DNA from: Fusobacteriota bacterium
Lineage (GTDB): Bacteria; Bacillota; TC1
DNA: 64,000 nucleotides
Reading direction: 5' to 3'
Assembly (NCBI GenBank): GCA_009773805.1
Contig: WTXA01000002.1
Location: forward strand, 620,001-684,000
Made by a program: the position numbers and the translations under genes. Under the pieces are notes generated by a model that did not search any database, was not told where the DNA came from, and saw nothing but the letters and a program-made list of their open reading frames with translations. Below, one piece after another: positions 37,470 through 51,695 of this stretch (positions are counted from its first letter, which is position 1; every line of letters starts with the position of its first letter).

Positions 37470-37841
37470 ATGTCGAGTAAGTTTGCAATAAATATAGAAG
37501 ATAAACACTATAGGTTTCATCTAAAAGCTGCAAATGGTGAAATTATTTTAAGTTCTCAACCGTATTCGTCACATGCAGCATGTGAAAAAGGTATTGAAAG
37601 CATAAGGTTAAATGCTCCAATTGCACCTATCGAAGACCAAACAATAGAAGGATTTACAAAAGAGTCGAATCCTAAATTTGAAGTGTATCAATATAAAAAT
37701 GGCGATTTTCGATTTAGATTAAAAGCAAAAAATGGAGAGTTGATAGGTACGGGGCAAAGGTATAAATCCAAAAGTGGTTGCCAAAATGGTATAGAGTCGA
37801 TTAAGAAAAATTCAGTAGAAGCAATAAATGTTGAAGAATAA
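37470..37841 (+). CDS. YegP family protein (two DUF1508 repeats)
   Basis: A 123-residue protein made of two copies of the same module: YRFHLKAANGEIILSSQPYSS (first, cut here) and FRFRLKAKNGELIGTGQRYKS (second), each followed by a GIESIR/GIESIK helix. This is the YegP/DUF1508 fold, of unknown function. AAGGAGG precedes the ATG. Confidence 0.85.
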   Translation: MSSKFAINIEDKHYRFHLKAANGEIILSSQPYSSHAACEKGIESIRLNAPIAPIEDQTIEGFTKESNPKFEVYQYKNGDFRFRLKAKNGELIGTGQRYKSKSGCQNGIESIKKNSVEAINVEE

Positions 37842-37869
37842 AACCTGTTCAATATTAGAAAATAGTTGC

Positions 37870-37912
37870 TAAATCACCGTATTATTTTATATGAGTAATA
37901 CGGTGATTTTAA
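37870..37912 (+). terminator. rho-independent terminator
   Basis: AAATCACCGTATTA (37871-37884) pairs with TAATACGGTGATTT (37896-37909), followed by TT. Confidence 0.7.
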
Positions 37913-46150: not shown

Positions 46151-47284
46151 CTAAGACAAACGTTCTTTAAAGTCTGAATACCCGAACTCTTTTACCAACT
46201 TAATATCACCATTTCTGCCAGCTATTACTATAGATGGAAGATTCATACCATTAAAAGTATTATTCTTAACCATAGAATAAATAGCCATATCACAAAAAGT
46301 CAGTTTATCACCAACCTTAAGAGGAGTATCAAAGGAATAATCCCCGATAATATCACCAGCTAGACAAGTAGGACCACCTAAGCGATAAGTGTGAGGTTTT
46401 TCATTTGCTTGACCACTACCAATAATATTAGGACGATAGGGAACCTCAAGAACATCAGGCATATGACAAGCAGCTGAGGTATCCATAATACAAATCTTCA
46501 TACCATTATCAACAATATCAAGAACCGAACTTACCAAAAAACCAGTATTTAAAGCAACCGCCTCACCTGGTTCAAGATAAACCTTAACATCATACTTTTC
46601 TCTAAAATTAATTACACATTCTATAAGGGTTTCAACATCATAATCAGATCTGGTAATATGATGACCACCACCAAAATTGACCCACTCCATATCATATAGA
46701 TACTTTCCAAACTTTTCTTCAATAACCTTGATAGTACTAACTAAATCATCACTATTTTGCTCACAAAGTGTATGGAAATGTAAACCACTAATACCTTCAA
46801 GTAAGTCAGGTTTGAAATTATCTATAGTAACTCCAAGTCTTGAACCCTTAGCACAAGGATCATATATTTCATGATCAACACCTTGAGTAGAATGCTCAGG
46901 ATTTATACGAATACCAAAACTTTTATTACTATTACCAATCAAAGATTTTTCTCTATACTTTTCCCATTGAGTAAAGGAGTTAAAGACAATATGATCACAA
47001 ATATCTAGAATCTCATCGAACTCCTCTTCCCTATAAGCAGTAGAAAAAACATGAGTTTCCCCACCCATTTCCTCGTGCCCTAGCTTAGCTTCAAAAAGAC
47101 CACTAGCAGCAGTACCACTTAAATACTCACCAACTAAAGAATAAAGACTAAACATAGAAAAAGCCTTTTGAGCCAGTAGTATTTTACAACCAGCTCTATC
47201 TGCAACTTTCTTCAACAATTCAAGATTTTTTATAAGAAGATTCTCGTCTACAATATAGTAAGGAGTTTTTAATACATCATTCAT
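46151..47284 (-). CDS. nspC: carboxynorspermidine/carboxyspermidine decarboxylase
   Basis: A PLP decarboxylase of about 377 residues, fold type III. The PLP lysine is in LLAQKAFS (Lys40) and the catalytic Cys in GGPTCLAGD; WVNFGGGHHIT and LEPGEAVAL are typical of NspC. It removes CO2 from carboxy(nor)spermidine, or carboxyaminopropylagmatine in the agmatine-based route. ATG 47284 is preferred; a TTG at 47302 overlaps the upstream stop. It is the last gene of the minus-strand polyamine operon. Confidence 0.88.
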   Translation of the reverse strand: MNDVLKTPYYIVDENLLIKNLELLKKVADRAGCKILLAQKAFSMFSLYSLVGEYLSGTAASGLFEAKLGHEEMGGETHVFSTAYREEEFDEILDICDHIVFNSFTQWEKYREKSLIGNSNKSFGIRINPEHSTQGVDHEIYDPCAKGSRLGVTIDNFKPDLLEGISGLHFHTLCEQNSDDLVSTIKVIEEKFGKYLYDMEWVNFGGGHHITRSDYDVETLIECVINFREKYDVKVYLEPGEAVALNTGFLVSSVLDIVDNGMKICIMDTSAACHMPDVLEVPYRPNIIGSGQANEKPHTYRLGGPTCLAGDIIGDYSFDTPLKVGDKLTFCDMAIYSMVKNNTFNGMNLPSIVIAGRNGDIKLVKEFGYSDFKERLS

Positions 47285-47294
47285 ATTCGTCAAC

Positions 47295-48494
47295 CTAGTC
47301 AACCAATGTAGGGTTAAAGTCCTCTACCCAAGGAAGGCCCCATTTATTTAAAGCTTCCATAAATGGATCTGGATCAAACTCTTCCACATTATAGACACCA
47401 GGCTTCTGCCAAGTTCCATTCATAACCAACATAGCACCAATCATTGCTGGAACACCAGTTGTATAAGAAATAGCCTGACTTTGTACTTCCTTATAGCTTT
47501 CCTCGTGATCGCACACATTGTAGATATAGTAGGTTCTTTCTTTACCATCCTTAATACCCTTGAATATACATCCAATATTTGTTTTACCCTTAGTTCTAGG
47601 TCCAAGTGAAGCAGGATCAGGAAGAACCGCTTTTAAAAACTGTAAAGGCACAATTTGCATTCCATTGTAATCAATAGGCTCAATAGAAGTCATACCAACA
47701 TTTTCTAAACACTTCAAATGAGTAATATAGCTTTGTCCAAAAGTCATAAAGAAACGAATTCTTTTAATACCCTTTAGGTTGAGGGCAAGGCTTTCCAACT
47801 CTTCATGATGAAGTAGATACATATCTTTCTTACCAATTACTGGAAAATCATATTCTCTTTTTATTTCCAAAGGCTCAGTTTCTACCCAGGTACCATCTTC
47901 CCAATAACTGCCATTAGCAGTTACTTCTCTAATATTAATTTCAGGATTAAAATTAGTTGCAAAAGGATATCCATGATCCCCTGCATTAGCATCTAAAATA
48001 TCTAAATAATGAATTTCATCAAAATAGTGCTTTTGAGCAAAAGCAGAAAAAACACCAGTTACACCTGGATCAAAGCCACTTCCAAGAAGAGCAGTAATTC
48101 CAGCTTCCTTGAAACGTTCTCTATAGGCCCACTGCCATTTGTATTCAAATTTAGCATCATCAAGTGGCTCATAATTAGCTGTATCTACATAATGAGTCTT
48201 AGTAGCAAGACAAGCATCCATTATAGTCAGATCTTGATATGGAAGGGCAAGATTAATTACAACATCAGGTTTAAAGCTATTGATCAAGTCAATTACTTCT
48301 TGTGTATTGTCAGCATCTACTTGTGCTGTATGAATCTTGGTTTTTCCTCCGTCAAGTTTTGCCTTTAGAACATCACATTTACTTTTAGTTCTACTGGCAA
48401 TCATTATTTCCTCAAAGACATCACTGTTCTGACAACATTTATGTATTGTCACACCAGCAACACCACCACATCCAATTATTAAAGCTTTTCCCAT
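47295..48494 (-). CDS. carboxynorspermidine/carboxyspermidine dehydrogenase (saccharopine dehydrogenase family)
   Basis: A 399-residue NADPH-dependent enzyme with Rossmann start LIIGCGGVAGV, DTANYEPLDD and GSGFDPGVTGVF. Its partner nspC follows directly, which separates it from lysine-pathway homologues. It should condense aspartate semialdehyde with a diamine (putrescine or diaminopropane) or with agmatine. AGGAGG precedes the ATG. Its third place after speA and speE suggests agmatine or putrescine as acceptor; the true substrate needs an assay. Confidence 0.85.
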   Translation of the reverse strand: MGKALIIGCGGVAGVTIHKCCQNSDVFEEIMIASRTKSKCDVLKAKLDGGKTKIHTAQVDADNTQEVIDLINSFKPDVVINLALPYQDLTIMDACLATKTHYVDTANYEPLDDAKFEYKWQWAYRERFKEAGITALLGSGFDPGVTGVFSAFAQKHYFDEIHYLDILDANAGDHGYPFATNFNPEINIREVTANGSYWEDGTWVETEPLEIKREYDFPVIGKKDMYLLHHEELESLALNLKGIKRIRFFMTFGQSYITHLKCLENVGMTSIEPIDYNGMQIVPLQFLKAVLPDPASLGPRTKGKTNIGCIFKGIKDGKERTYYIYNVCDHEESYKEVQSQAISYTTGVPAMIGAMLVMNGTWQKPGVYNVEEFDPDPFMEALNKWGLPWVEDFNPTLVD

Positions 48495-48554
48495 ATTTAA
48501 TACCTCCTATAATGCATTTATTAAATTATTAATGTTTTGTATTTGTATACTGCA

Positions 48555-49406
48555 CTACTCTACATTCTCCAACATTTCTTCTACATAATTTGGCAGATAG
48601 AAAGAACCTCTATGAAGATTTGTATTATAGTATTTTGTTTTAATATCTAGTGATTTCCACCAGTCAGCTTTCAAGTCCTTTATTGGATGATACTTCTTAG
48701 AAGCAAACCCAAACAACCAATGACCTGATGGATAAGTTGGAATATGTGCTTGATAGACCTTGCTAATAGGGAAGGTCTCCACAATACGCTTATGAGCCCT
48801 CTTCATCGCATTTGCATCAGCTTCATAAAAAGGACTCTCATGCTGATTGACCATTATCCCATCCTCTTTTAAAGCCTTGAAACAATTTCCATAAAACTCC
48901 TTGGTAAAAAGCCCTTCACCAGGACCAAAAGGATCTGTAGAATCAACAATAATTAAATCATATTCATTTTCATATTTACGAATAAACTTCAAACCATCTT
49001 GATTATAGATCTTAAGACGACTATCATCAAAACAACAAGCAGTCTGAGGTAAGTACTCCTTACAAACAGCAATAACCTGTTCATCAATCTCCACCAAATC
49101 TATATTTTCAATACTCTTATACTTAGCAAGTTCCCTTACTGCACCACCATCACCAGCACCGATTACAAGCACCTTGCGAACATTAGGGTGAACAGCCATA
49201 GGTATATGAGTTATCATCTCATGATAAATAAACTCATCTTTTTCTGTTAACATCATCAGACCATCAAGAGTTAGGAATCTACCAAATTCAGGAGATTGGA
49301 AAACATCAATTCTTTGAAATTCACTTTGTCCACTATAGAGTTGTTTATCAACCTTTATGGATATTTTAACATTTTCTGTATATTTTTCGCTATACCATAA
49401 TTCCAT
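48555..49406 (-). CDS. speE: SpeE-like aminopropyltransferase
   Basis: A 283-residue enzyme with GRFLTLDGLMMLTEKDEFIYHE, GAGDGG in the cofactor loop, the Asp pair DSTDPFGPGEGLF and YQAHIPTYPSGHW, all typical of spermidine synthase. It transfers an aminopropyl group from decarboxylated SAM to putrescine or agmatine. No speD is in this window to make that donor. GAGGTG precedes the ATG and includes the speA stop, so the genes are coupled. Confidence 0.88.
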   Translation of the reverse strand: MELWYSEKYTENVKISIKVDKQLYSGQSEFQRIDVFQSPEFGRFLTLDGLMMLTEKDEFIYHEMITHIPMAVHPNVRKVLVIGAGDGGAVRELAKYKSIENIDLVEIDEQVIAVCKEYLPQTACCFDDSRLKIYNQDGLKFIRKYENEYDLIIVDSTDPFGPGEGLFTKEFYGNCFKALKEDGIMVNQHESPFYEADANAMKRAHKRIVETFPISKVYQAHIPTYPSGHWLFGFASKKYHPIKDLKADWWKSLDIKTKYYNTNLHRGSFYLPNYVEEMLENVE

Positions 49407-49412
49407 TTCAAA

Positions 49413-50861
49413 TCACCTCTTCAATATATTTAATTTATTTAAATCCATATCCTCTGAACCTGTTAGTAAACTACCTTTTTCCTTAGCATAATTAATATAC
49501 TCAATTATTTCCTCAGTTATAAGCTCACCTGGAGCAAGAATTGGAATACCAGGAGGATAACACATAACAAACTCTCCACATACATGACCGATGCTTTCCT
49601 TTAAGGGTAGTGCTGTCTTTTCCCAATAGAAGGCATCCTGTGGAGACATGATAACCCTTGGACTTAAATATTCGTTCTTAAGCATACCAATCTTTGTTTT
49701 CTTATATTTTCTTCTGATTTCAGCCAAAGCACCAATCAGTCTTTCAATATTCTTATTACTATCACCTACAGAAATATAGGCTAAAATATTCCCCATATCT
49801 CCAAATTCTATTTGGATATCGTATTCATCCCTTAATATATCATAGACTTCAATTCCAGCTAGACCAATCTCGAAGGTATTAATTGATAACTTAGTAATAT
49901 CAAAATCATAGATAGTATCACCGTTGATTAATTCCTTAGAATAAGCATAAAAGTCACCTATTTGATTGATTTCTTCTCTGGCATACTCTGTAAGTTCAAT
50001 AACCTTGTTGAAAATATCAATACCCTTTAAAGCCAGGTTCTTTCTTGCTATATCAAGACTTGATAATAGAAGGTATGAGCCACTAGTTGTCTGGGTCAGA
50101 TTAATAATCTGCCTTACATGATTAGGATTCATATTCTTACCACATAATAAAATAGAACTCTGAGTTAGAGAACCACCTGACTTGTGCATACTTACAGAAG
50201 CCATATCAGCTCCTGCTGCCATTGCAGACATGGGCATGTTTTTACCAAAGTAGAAATGTGTACCATGAGCTTCATCAGCAAGTACCAACATTCCCTTTTG
50301 ATGAGCAAGTTCAGTTATTTCCTTTATATTAGAACATATACCATAGTAGGTAGGATTATTAATTAGAATTACCTTAGCATCTGAATTTTCCGCAATTGCT
50401 CGCTTAACATCTTCAAGGGACATGCCTAAAGAAATTCCTAAGCGTTCATCAATTTGTGGATTAATATATATTGGAATAGCACCACAAAGAACCATGGCAT
50501 TAATTACACTTATATGTACATTTCTTGGAAGTATGATCTTATCATCTTTTTTACAGACAGATAATATCATTGCCTGGACAGATGAGGTAGTACCACCTAC
50601 CATAAAAAAAGCATTGGTAGCTCCAAAAGCTTCTGCTGCTAGTTCTTCAGCTTCTTTAATAACTGATGTAGGATGACAAAGATTATCAAGTGGTTTCATT
50701 GAGTTAACATCCACTGACATACATTTTTCTCCTAGAAAATCTAATAGCTCTTTGTTGCCTTTTCCTCTTTTATGTCCAGGAACATCGAAGGGGACTATTC
50801 TCATATTTTTCATTTCATTTAATGCTTCAAATATGGGAGCTTTGTTTTGTTTTTTGTCCAA
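49413..50861 (-). CDS. speA: arginine decarboxylase (Orn/Lys/Arg decarboxylase family)
   Basis: A 482-residue PLP enzyme of the short Bacillus SpeA/YaaO type. It shows PFDVPGHKRGKG near the start, FMVGGTTSSVQAMI, ADEAHGTHF and the PLP lysine in SMHKSGGSL. Arginine is the likely substrate, giving agmatine, but lysine or ornithine cannot be excluded by sequence. The start is TTG 50861 with a strong GGAGGTG. It heads the polyamine operon, behind a long structured leader with terminator. No agmatinase gene is present. Confidence 0.87.
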   Translation of the reverse strand: MDKKQNKAPIFEALNEMKNMRIVPFDVPGHKRGKGNKELLDFLGEKCMSVDVNSMKPLDNLCHPTSVIKEAEELAAEAFGATNAFFMVGGTTSSVQAMILSVCKKDDKIILPRNVHISVINAMVLCGAIPIYINPQIDERLGISLGMSLEDVKRAIAENSDAKVILINNPTYYGICSNIKEITELAHQKGMLVLADEAHGTHFYFGKNMPMSAMAAGADMASVSMHKSGGSLTQSSILLCGKNMNPNHVRQIINLTQTTSGSYLLLSSLDIARKNLALKGIDIFNKVIELTEYAREEINQIGDFYAYSKELINGDTIYDFDITKLSINTFEIGLAGIEVYDILRDEYDIQIEFGDMGNILAYISVGDSNKNIERLIGALAEIRRKYKKTKIGMLKNEYLSPRVIMSPQDAFYWEKTALPLKESIGHVCGEFVMCYPPGIPILAPGELITEEIIEYINYAKEKGSLLTGSEDMDLNKLNILKR

Positions 50862-51171
50862 GTTTTCACCTCCAAATAAAAAAACTCATGTTATTGCGAC
50901 GTTGCGCAACACTCATGAGATTTGTCATTTCACTTATAGAATTTCAGAGTCTATATAGCATTTGAACTACTTTACTACTCTTATTGACCGTTTCACAAGT
51001 GTGTAGCTTATACACATTTGGTTATGAAGTAACCATCTTATAAAATTTGCGCTCCTAACGCAATCAATAACTTGGCTTTCGCCACGATCGGCAGTTGACC
51101 CGGCTGTCCGTATGGCCTTTGCTCTTTTAAAAAAAGCGGTCAAGTAGTTCTAGTTTTTTTAAACTGAAACT
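50862..51171 (-). promoter_or_regulatory. structured 5' leader of the polyamine operon, putative riboswitch/attenuator
   Basis: The minus-strand transcript from about 51171 has roughly 310 nt before speA. A long-range stem closes a domain: plus-strand 51137-51143 (CGGTCAA) against 50984-50990 (TTGACCG), extended by 51144-51150 against 50964-50970. Inside lie hairpins including TGGC-GAAA-GCCA with a GNRA tetraloop, TTGCG/CGCAA, GGTTA/TAACC and TGTGT/ACACA. An intrinsic terminator (50876-50918) ends just before the speA ribosome site. I could not match lysine, SAM, T-box, guanidine, c-di-GMP or Mg classes by eye. Confidence 0.7.
50873..50918 (-). terminator. attenuator terminator before speA
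   Basis: On the minus strand CTCATG...TTGCG pairs with CGCAA...CATGAG in an imperfect stem of about 14 bp, followed by TTTTTTT. It ends a few bases before GGAGGTG and the speA TTG. Confidence 0.8.
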
Positions 51172-51177
51172 CATTAA

Positions 51178-51206
51178 ATAATACTTTGTTTTACCTATTT
51201 TGTCAA
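51178..51206 (-). promoter_or_regulatory. sigma-A promoter of the polyamine operon
   Basis: Minus strand TTGACA (plus 51201-51206), 17 bp, TATTAT (plus 51178-51183). Confidence 0.82.
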
Positions 51207-51317
51207 GTAAGATAAGGGGAAATCTATCCTATAAATTAGATTGAAAAACCCTTTTTTTGTAAAGATTTTATTGGTAGAATGAGAATAGTATTATTGATAA
51301 TATTGGAGGAAGTATAT

Positions 51318-51695
51318 ATGAATAACCTCATTAAACCAGATAGCTGGTTAATATGTAGTGATATAAGAGAATGGCATGATTGGCTTGTAATAAATCACTT
51401 AACAAAATCTGAAATGTGGTTACAAATAAGAAAAGTTAGATCAGAGGATATTGGAGTTAAATTAGACGAGGCGGTAGAAGAAGCTATTTGTTATGGATGG
51501 ATAGATGGTAAAATGTACAGTCTTGATGAGGGTAAATATATTCTTCGCTTTACACCAAGAAGGGGTGGCAGTTTTTGGTCTAAGAAAAATCGCAAACGTG
51601 CAGAGGTTCTTATAGAGACCGGTAGAATGACTGAAATTGGAATGAAAAAAGTCAAAGAAGCACAAAAAAATGGTCATTGGGAGAACGCTTATTAG
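51318..51695 (+). CDS. YdeI/OmpD-associated family protein, C-terminally short
   Basis: A 125-residue protein with EWHDWLVINH, WLQIRKV, EAICYGWIDGKM, RFTPRRGGSFWSKKNRKRAE and GHWENAY (parts quoted). It matches the N-terminal module of YdeI-like proteins, which usually run to about 190 residues; the C-terminal helical part is missing. It may be a short natural form or a truncated gene. GGAGG precedes the ATG. Confidence 0.75.
   Translation: MNNLIKPDSWLICSDIREWHDWLVINHLTKSEMWLQIRKVRSEDIGVKLDEAVEEAICYGWIDGKMYSLDEGKYILRFTPRRGGSFWSKKNRKRAEVLIETGRMTEIGMKKVKEAQKNGHWENAY

Follow-up and report, generated by a model that had tools for sequence, protein, structure and literature searches.

What signal governs the long RNA leader of speA-speE-CASDH-nspC, a spermidine operon, and by what kind of switch is it read? 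The operon lies in a window of 64,000 nucleotides (the whole stretch of DNA that was analysed), and positions 50862-51206 on the minus strand lead from a promoter through a multi-helix RNA of ~250 nt and an intrinsic terminator to speA. Sequence comparison with related leaders brings out a conserved fold, the terminator, a pair of alternative pairings that exclude each other and an association with particular genes. Judged by these comparisons, the leader belongs, with considerable probability, to a widespread class of candidate riboswitches that sense a polyamine, with spermidine the most likely one, and shut synthesis and uptake operons by premature termination. The landmarks of the locus are as follows.

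51178-51206, minus strand: promoter (-35 TTGACA at 51206-51201, 17-nt spacer, -10 TATTAT at 51183-51178)
50878-50919, minus strand: intrinsic terminator (hairpin 50919-50885, then U7 at 50884-50878)
50869-50873, minus strand: ribosome binding site GGAGG
49413-50861, minus strand: speA-type Orn/Lys/Arg decarboxylase, TTG start, first gene of the operon
46151-49406, minus strand: rest of the operon, with speE (49406-48555), carboxy(nor)spermidine dehydrogenase (LYS9/CASDH, 48494-47295) and nspC (47302-46151)

Read from the sequence, the promoter matches the consensus at 11/12 positions (TTGACA-17-TATTAT), the leader is ~310 nt long and the terminator with its seven U adjoins the GGAGG of the TTG-start speA; the spacing from the promoter would place the RNA start near 51171. 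The predicted folding energy of the leader is -79.7 kcal/mol, whereas shuffled versions average -62.7 (z -3.35) and 0/100 of them fold as well. The original prediction of a consensus promoter, a leader structured well beyond chance and a terminator abutting the speA ribosome site is thereby borne out. Its GAAA-capped hairpin is located at 51087-51071, the purine-rich joints that it had described as conserved-looking (GAGUAGUAAA and CAUACGGACA) hardly vary among relatives, and its long-range helix is present in refined form: 51150-51142 pairs with 50972-50964, and an outer helix, P1, is formed by 51172-51164 and 50947-50939. In the NCBIfam search, speE and nspC score above cutoff, and the CASDH has carsnrspmd_synth as its best match, below cutoff. 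The host genome carries one such RNA element; its speD is present but unlinked. A second, weak core-model match in that genome (L171, E 0.23) was rejected, as it precedes a short-chain dehydrogenase-like gene and is devoid of the conserved words. Adjoining the leader on the plus strand (51279-51695) is a divergent 138-aa reading frame without an NCBIfam match, which by its sequence may resemble YdeI-type small proteins.

The conserved fold can be described helix by helix, all on the minus strand.

51164-51172, minus strand: 5′ strand of P1, GAGUUUCAG, pairing with 50947-50939 (z -6.6 against permuted pairs in relatives)
51142-51150, minus strand: 5′ strand of the closing helix P2, GAACUACUU, pairing with 50972-50964 (permutation test)
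51095-51143, minus strand: 5′ domain, with P3 (51143-51138/51100-51095), the P3a hairpin (51137-51121) and P3b (51117-51115/51104-51102)
51105-51114, minus strand: near-invariant P3b loop CAUACGGACA (alignment A1)
51088-51093, minus strand: near-invariant joint UGCCGA (alignment A1)
51071-51087, minus strand: P4 hairpin, with a GAAA tetraloop in the window genome; the stem co-varies (5/5 pairs with two-sided changes) and the loop is variable
50981-51070, minus strand: core domain, closed by P5 (51070-51062/50989-50981), with P6 (51061-51049), P7 (51045-51037/50999-50991), P7a (51034-51020) and P7b (51016-51000)
50977-50980, minus strand: GAGU, pairing with ACUC at 50950-50947 across P2 (putative pseudoknot)
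50964-50972, minus strand: 3′ strand of P2, AAGUAGUUC (permutation test)
50939-50957, minus strand: conserved tail with UAUAUAGACUCU, comprising the pseudoknot strand (50950-50947) and then the 3′ strand of P1 (50947-50939), from the alignments

Two alignments support this fold. Alignment A1 comprises 30 cores, to which a structure of 51 pairs was assigned by hand; paired cells make up 94.2% (88.2% when shuffled), two-sided changes occur in 20 pairs (10.7 when shuffled), and the covariation score is 0.206, against 0.105 for shuffled alignments and at most 0.065 for slid structures. Within the 5′ domain, two-sided changes affect two pairs of P3, five of P3a and two of P3b. Compensations are clear in P3 (GACC/GGUC to GCCC/GGGC in L067 and L074), P3b (GGC/GCC to GCC/GGC in L074), P3a and P4, while P5 and P7 show few two-sided changes because they are nearly invariant. 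In A2, made of 53 cores, 96.4% of cells are paired for P5, P6, P7, P7a and the GAGU/ACUC helix, and 99.5% for the latter helix taken separately, which has variants such as GAGC/GGCUC (L077, L079) and GAGU/GCUC (potA-type L158, L162 and L164). Because it crosses P2, the GAGU/ACUC helix would be a pseudoknot. The outer helices vary in sequence between clades, and their real partners pair better than permuted ones, with -8.57 against -6.29 kcal/mol for P2 (n=36) and -14.54 against -11.30 kcal/mol for P1; for each, 0/20000 permutations were as good, relatedness being partly controlled. The closing helices therefore co-vary, as the original prediction required. Sequence and structure conservation with covariation, found here in 5′ leaders, is one mark of a riboswitch.

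Another mark is the restriction of the element to genes of one theme. From a starting set of 80 loci with related speA, AAGGCCATACGGACAGCC-like words were found in 37 segments, about 33 of which continue into a long conserved stretch. A covariance search with model R1 recovered the element in 19/398 sampled Bacillota genomes, before speA, speD or CASDH. With model R2, it was found in 45/321 genomes (14%) in the class of genome G069, and 45/45 elements precede a polyamine gene (speD 16, potA 14, speA 13, CASDH 2); in the class of G181, 7/83 genomes carry it and 7/7 elements precede CASDH. The potA and potB calls derive from best NCBIfam matches to spermidine/putrescine PotA and PotB in three representatives, and from likeness in sequence and gene order in the others. 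The genes concerned are only those of polyamine synthesis and import. Five genomes of the window's genus or family (G014, G133, G213, G238 and G060) gave no match to the RNA; since close relatives of the host genome are without a match, presence within the genus appears patchy.

Variation among relatives suggests that the RNA consists of a near-invariant P5-P7/pseudoknot core and an optional 5′ domain. Model R1 matches L037, L012, L061 and L070 from position 75 onward only; in such partial loci, P5-P7 and the tail GAGUAGUAAAAG...UUGCUAUAUAGACUCU are retained, and the P3 domain is replaced or missing. In L037, L012, L070, L039, L072, L032, L040, L052 and L056, several of them from Mediterraneibacter, the core is unchanged and other hairpins (e.g. 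AUGGAAAGCAGAUAUUUGGAAGUUCUCCAUGC) stand in place of the CAUACGGACA-containing 5′ domain. Many potA-type leaders (L154, L157, L158, L160-L164) lose the P2 strand; in them, GAGUACGCGUA...RCUC folds locally into a short hairpin rather than a pseudoknot, which makes them a distinct subtype. In speD-type leaders (L002, L003, L024, L041, L092), a conserved GUGAAUAAAUAAAA-hairpin-AAUAAAUAAU directly follows the element, and part of it pairs in P1. What looked like tandem copies in G757 (L168, contig C99, about 37496-37893) is one potA-type element, broken up by an insert of ~250-300 nt that lies inside the P7b hairpin and has ~20-nt terminal inverted repeats, GAGCCGAACAGTAATAATCCAA ... TTGGATTGTTACTGTTCGGCTG; these repeats could lengthen the P7b stem, and therefore the switch may still work.

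The core is coupled to the terminator through two further strands.

50994-51002, minus strand: antiterminator strand 1, ACACUUGUG, made of the 3′ strands of P7b and P7, pairing with 50917-50909 at a predicted energy of about -14 kcal/mol in the window
50909-50917, minus strand: antiterminator strand 2, CAUGAGUGU, which is the 5′ arm of the terminator

In most relatives, an intrinsic terminator follows the element at a distance of up to about 180 nt; P7b and P7 have 3′ strands (ACUUGUG and preceding letters) that are complementary to the 5′ arm of this terminator. The paired sequences differ between loci: ACGCAGACUUGUG with CGCAAGUUGUGU in L027, UAUCACUUG with AAGUGAUAU in L046, UUCGUCGACUUGU with ACAAGUGACGAA in L157, and CACAUCGACUUGU with ACAAGCGAUGUG in L158. 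Across 70 non-redundant relatives, with relatedness partly controlled, the mean duplex energy is -13.5 kcal/mol for cognate strands, compared with -11.1 for swapped partners (z -9.6, 0/20000 permutations) and -7.1 for reversed arms, and the signal is retained by the variable P7b strand alone (z -4.9). Because the P7/P7b 3′ strand co-varies with the terminator 5′ arm too, both of its pairings are conserved, so that a single strand would engage in either the aptamer or the antiterminator. Such an expression platform, which cannot form while the aptamer fold persists, is again characteristic of riboswitches, and the originally proposed transcription-attenuation design gains support from an antiterminator that co-varies and overlaps the terminator arm.

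On the usual reasoning for riboswitches, the terminator arm is set free once a ligand stabilises the aptamer, which makes an OFF switch. At the speA leader, when little ligand is present, the 3′ strands of P7 and P7b would pair with the terminator 5′ arm as an antiterminator, and polymerase would read into speA. Spermidine would stabilise the P5/P7/pseudoknot core and hold the strand in P7/P7b; the terminator arm would then be free, the terminator would form and the operon would be off. In this scheme, we infer direct ligand binding, the identity of the ligand and the OFF direction. Constrained folds of the window RNA count against the model: in them, the antiterminator state lies 2.7 to 7.6 kcal/mol higher in energy than aptamer-plus-terminator across transcript lengths, so that the latter is predicted to be favoured by about 3 to 8 kcal/mol even without ligand, in calculations that omit co-transcriptional kinetics and the pseudoknot. 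In addition, polyamines bind many RNAs loosely, which is a point against reading the leader as a direct sensor.

The polyamine-type ligand originally proposed is supported by the exclusive association of the element with polyamine synthesis and import genes. Spermidine would be the product or cargo common to arginine decarboxylation (speA), decarboxy-SAM formation (speD), the carboxyspermidine route (CASDH) and polyamine import (potABC), and it is favoured because none of the other proposed ligands suits the four gene types together. Among the candidates put forward, spermidine or a close polyamine seems to fit, whereas arginine, agmatine, SAM and Mg2+ are set aside as a probable misfit, going by gene association, with an operon set that includes speD, CASDH and potABC. 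The same architecture could serve another ligand, such as putrescine, agmatine, norspermidine or cadaverine, an option to which we grant a small chance: PotABC can import putrescine, speA-type enzymes make agmatine or cadaverine, and the first genes vary between clades. Yet CASDH and SpeD operons run from putrescine to spermidine, where feedback by putrescine or agmatine would be odd, and spermidine remains the probable common denominator of all four gene types.

That the leader is read by a protein, either a terminator/antiterminator factor or a ribosomal signal, instead of a small molecule seems improbable. Polyamines affect many RNA-binding processes, and the near-invariant CAUACGGACA loop of the 5′ domain could dock a protein, but the size of the element, its multi-helix junctions, pseudoknot, invariant core and overlapping antiterminator are typical of metabolite riboswitches.

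Whether the element belongs to a known RNA family was addressed with Rfam 15. Over the whole window, the single match was RF02440 (SpF59_sRNA, 'ldcC RNA', from Streptococcus) at 51142-51088, with 69.8 bits against a cutoff of 37.2. The leader had been described as unassigned, which holds in that the only match is a fragment without a ligand class, but fails in that part of the leader is matched by Rfam. In the 398 Bacillota genomes, RF02440 matches 17, a subset of the 19 found with R1; in relatives without the 5′ domain (e.g. L037, L072), Rfam finds nothing in the leader. The 54-nt model, which matches the window's 5′ domain above the gathering score, covers only P3/P3a/P3b and UGCCGA and is without the P5-P7 core, the pseudoknot, P1/P2 and the expression platform, while conservation of the window element extends over ~250 nt and the core persists where the RF02440 part is missing. 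Going by the Rfam match, the Streptococcus SpF59 RNA very probably represents part of the element seen here. Its registration as an sRNA, and the stability that a terminated leader would have, might suggest that the terminated transcript acts mainly in trans; this is very unlikely, as the element is invariably found in cis, ahead of polyamine genes, and its terminator arm co-varies with the leader, which a trans-acting RNA would not need. Leader-peptide or T-box attenuation by arginine or lysine supply can practically be dismissed, since despite an Arg/Lys decarboxylase as first gene, a terminator and a 58-codon open frame overlapping the leader, the core lengths of relatives fall over all three frames (14:10:6), so that the frame is not conserved and a leader peptide was rejected, the Rfam search gave no T-box match, and the same RNA also precedes speD, CASDH and potA.

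A spermidine-sensing leader of this type would matter in several respects. Few metabolites bound to RNA are as abundant as the polyamines. The element itself is frequent, at 14% in one class sample; the genes behind it represent the two known routes by which bacteria make spermidine, together with an uptake system, and its terminator switch is easily readable. RNA-based spermidine sensing in bacteria thus becomes directly testable, and an identity is suggested for the orphan SpF59/ldcC RNA of streptococci.

As to known systems, a permissive Rfam search of the leader (E up to 5) added one sub-threshold match and returned no SAM, M-box or T-box family. The earlier impression of an M-box likeness was not sustained: the leader has a few short words in common with the M-box (ykoK), and its gene context is polyamine, not magnesium. 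The potE motif, confined to Veillonella and with weak structure support, and the odc1 motif, a uORF-linked hairpin of alphaproteobacteria (PMC8632094), are candidate RNAs that also precede polyamine-related genes, but they are different RNAs. The main text of a 50-genome survey (PMC11109978) is without mention of polyamine candidates. In the open-licence literature searched, no published description of the whole element was found, and the SAM-I variant (13 examples) was the only reported polyamine riboswitch; what had been catalogued previously is a 54-letter fragment, as an uncharacterised small RNA. The SAM-I variant has a four-stem fold with 13 known examples, is switched OFF by spermidine through a terminator/antiterminator platform, and precedes speE, speB and ldcC (Salvail et al. 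2023, PMC10853860); its authors considered that further polyamine classes are surely still to be found. Like that class, the window element stands before polyamine synthesis genes and has a terminator/antiterminator platform, with OFF switching as the presumed direction; unlike it, the element is without a SAM family match, has a larger and different fold, is represented many more times and also precedes potA. It thus appears to work like the SAM-I-variant spermidine riboswitch without belonging to that class. On comparative grounds, it would probably constitute a structurally independent and widespread class of spermidine (polyamine) riboswitches in Bacillota, unrelated to the rare SAM-I-derived one, built from a core and an optional 5′ domain, and serving both synthesis (speA, speD, CASDH) and import (potABC).
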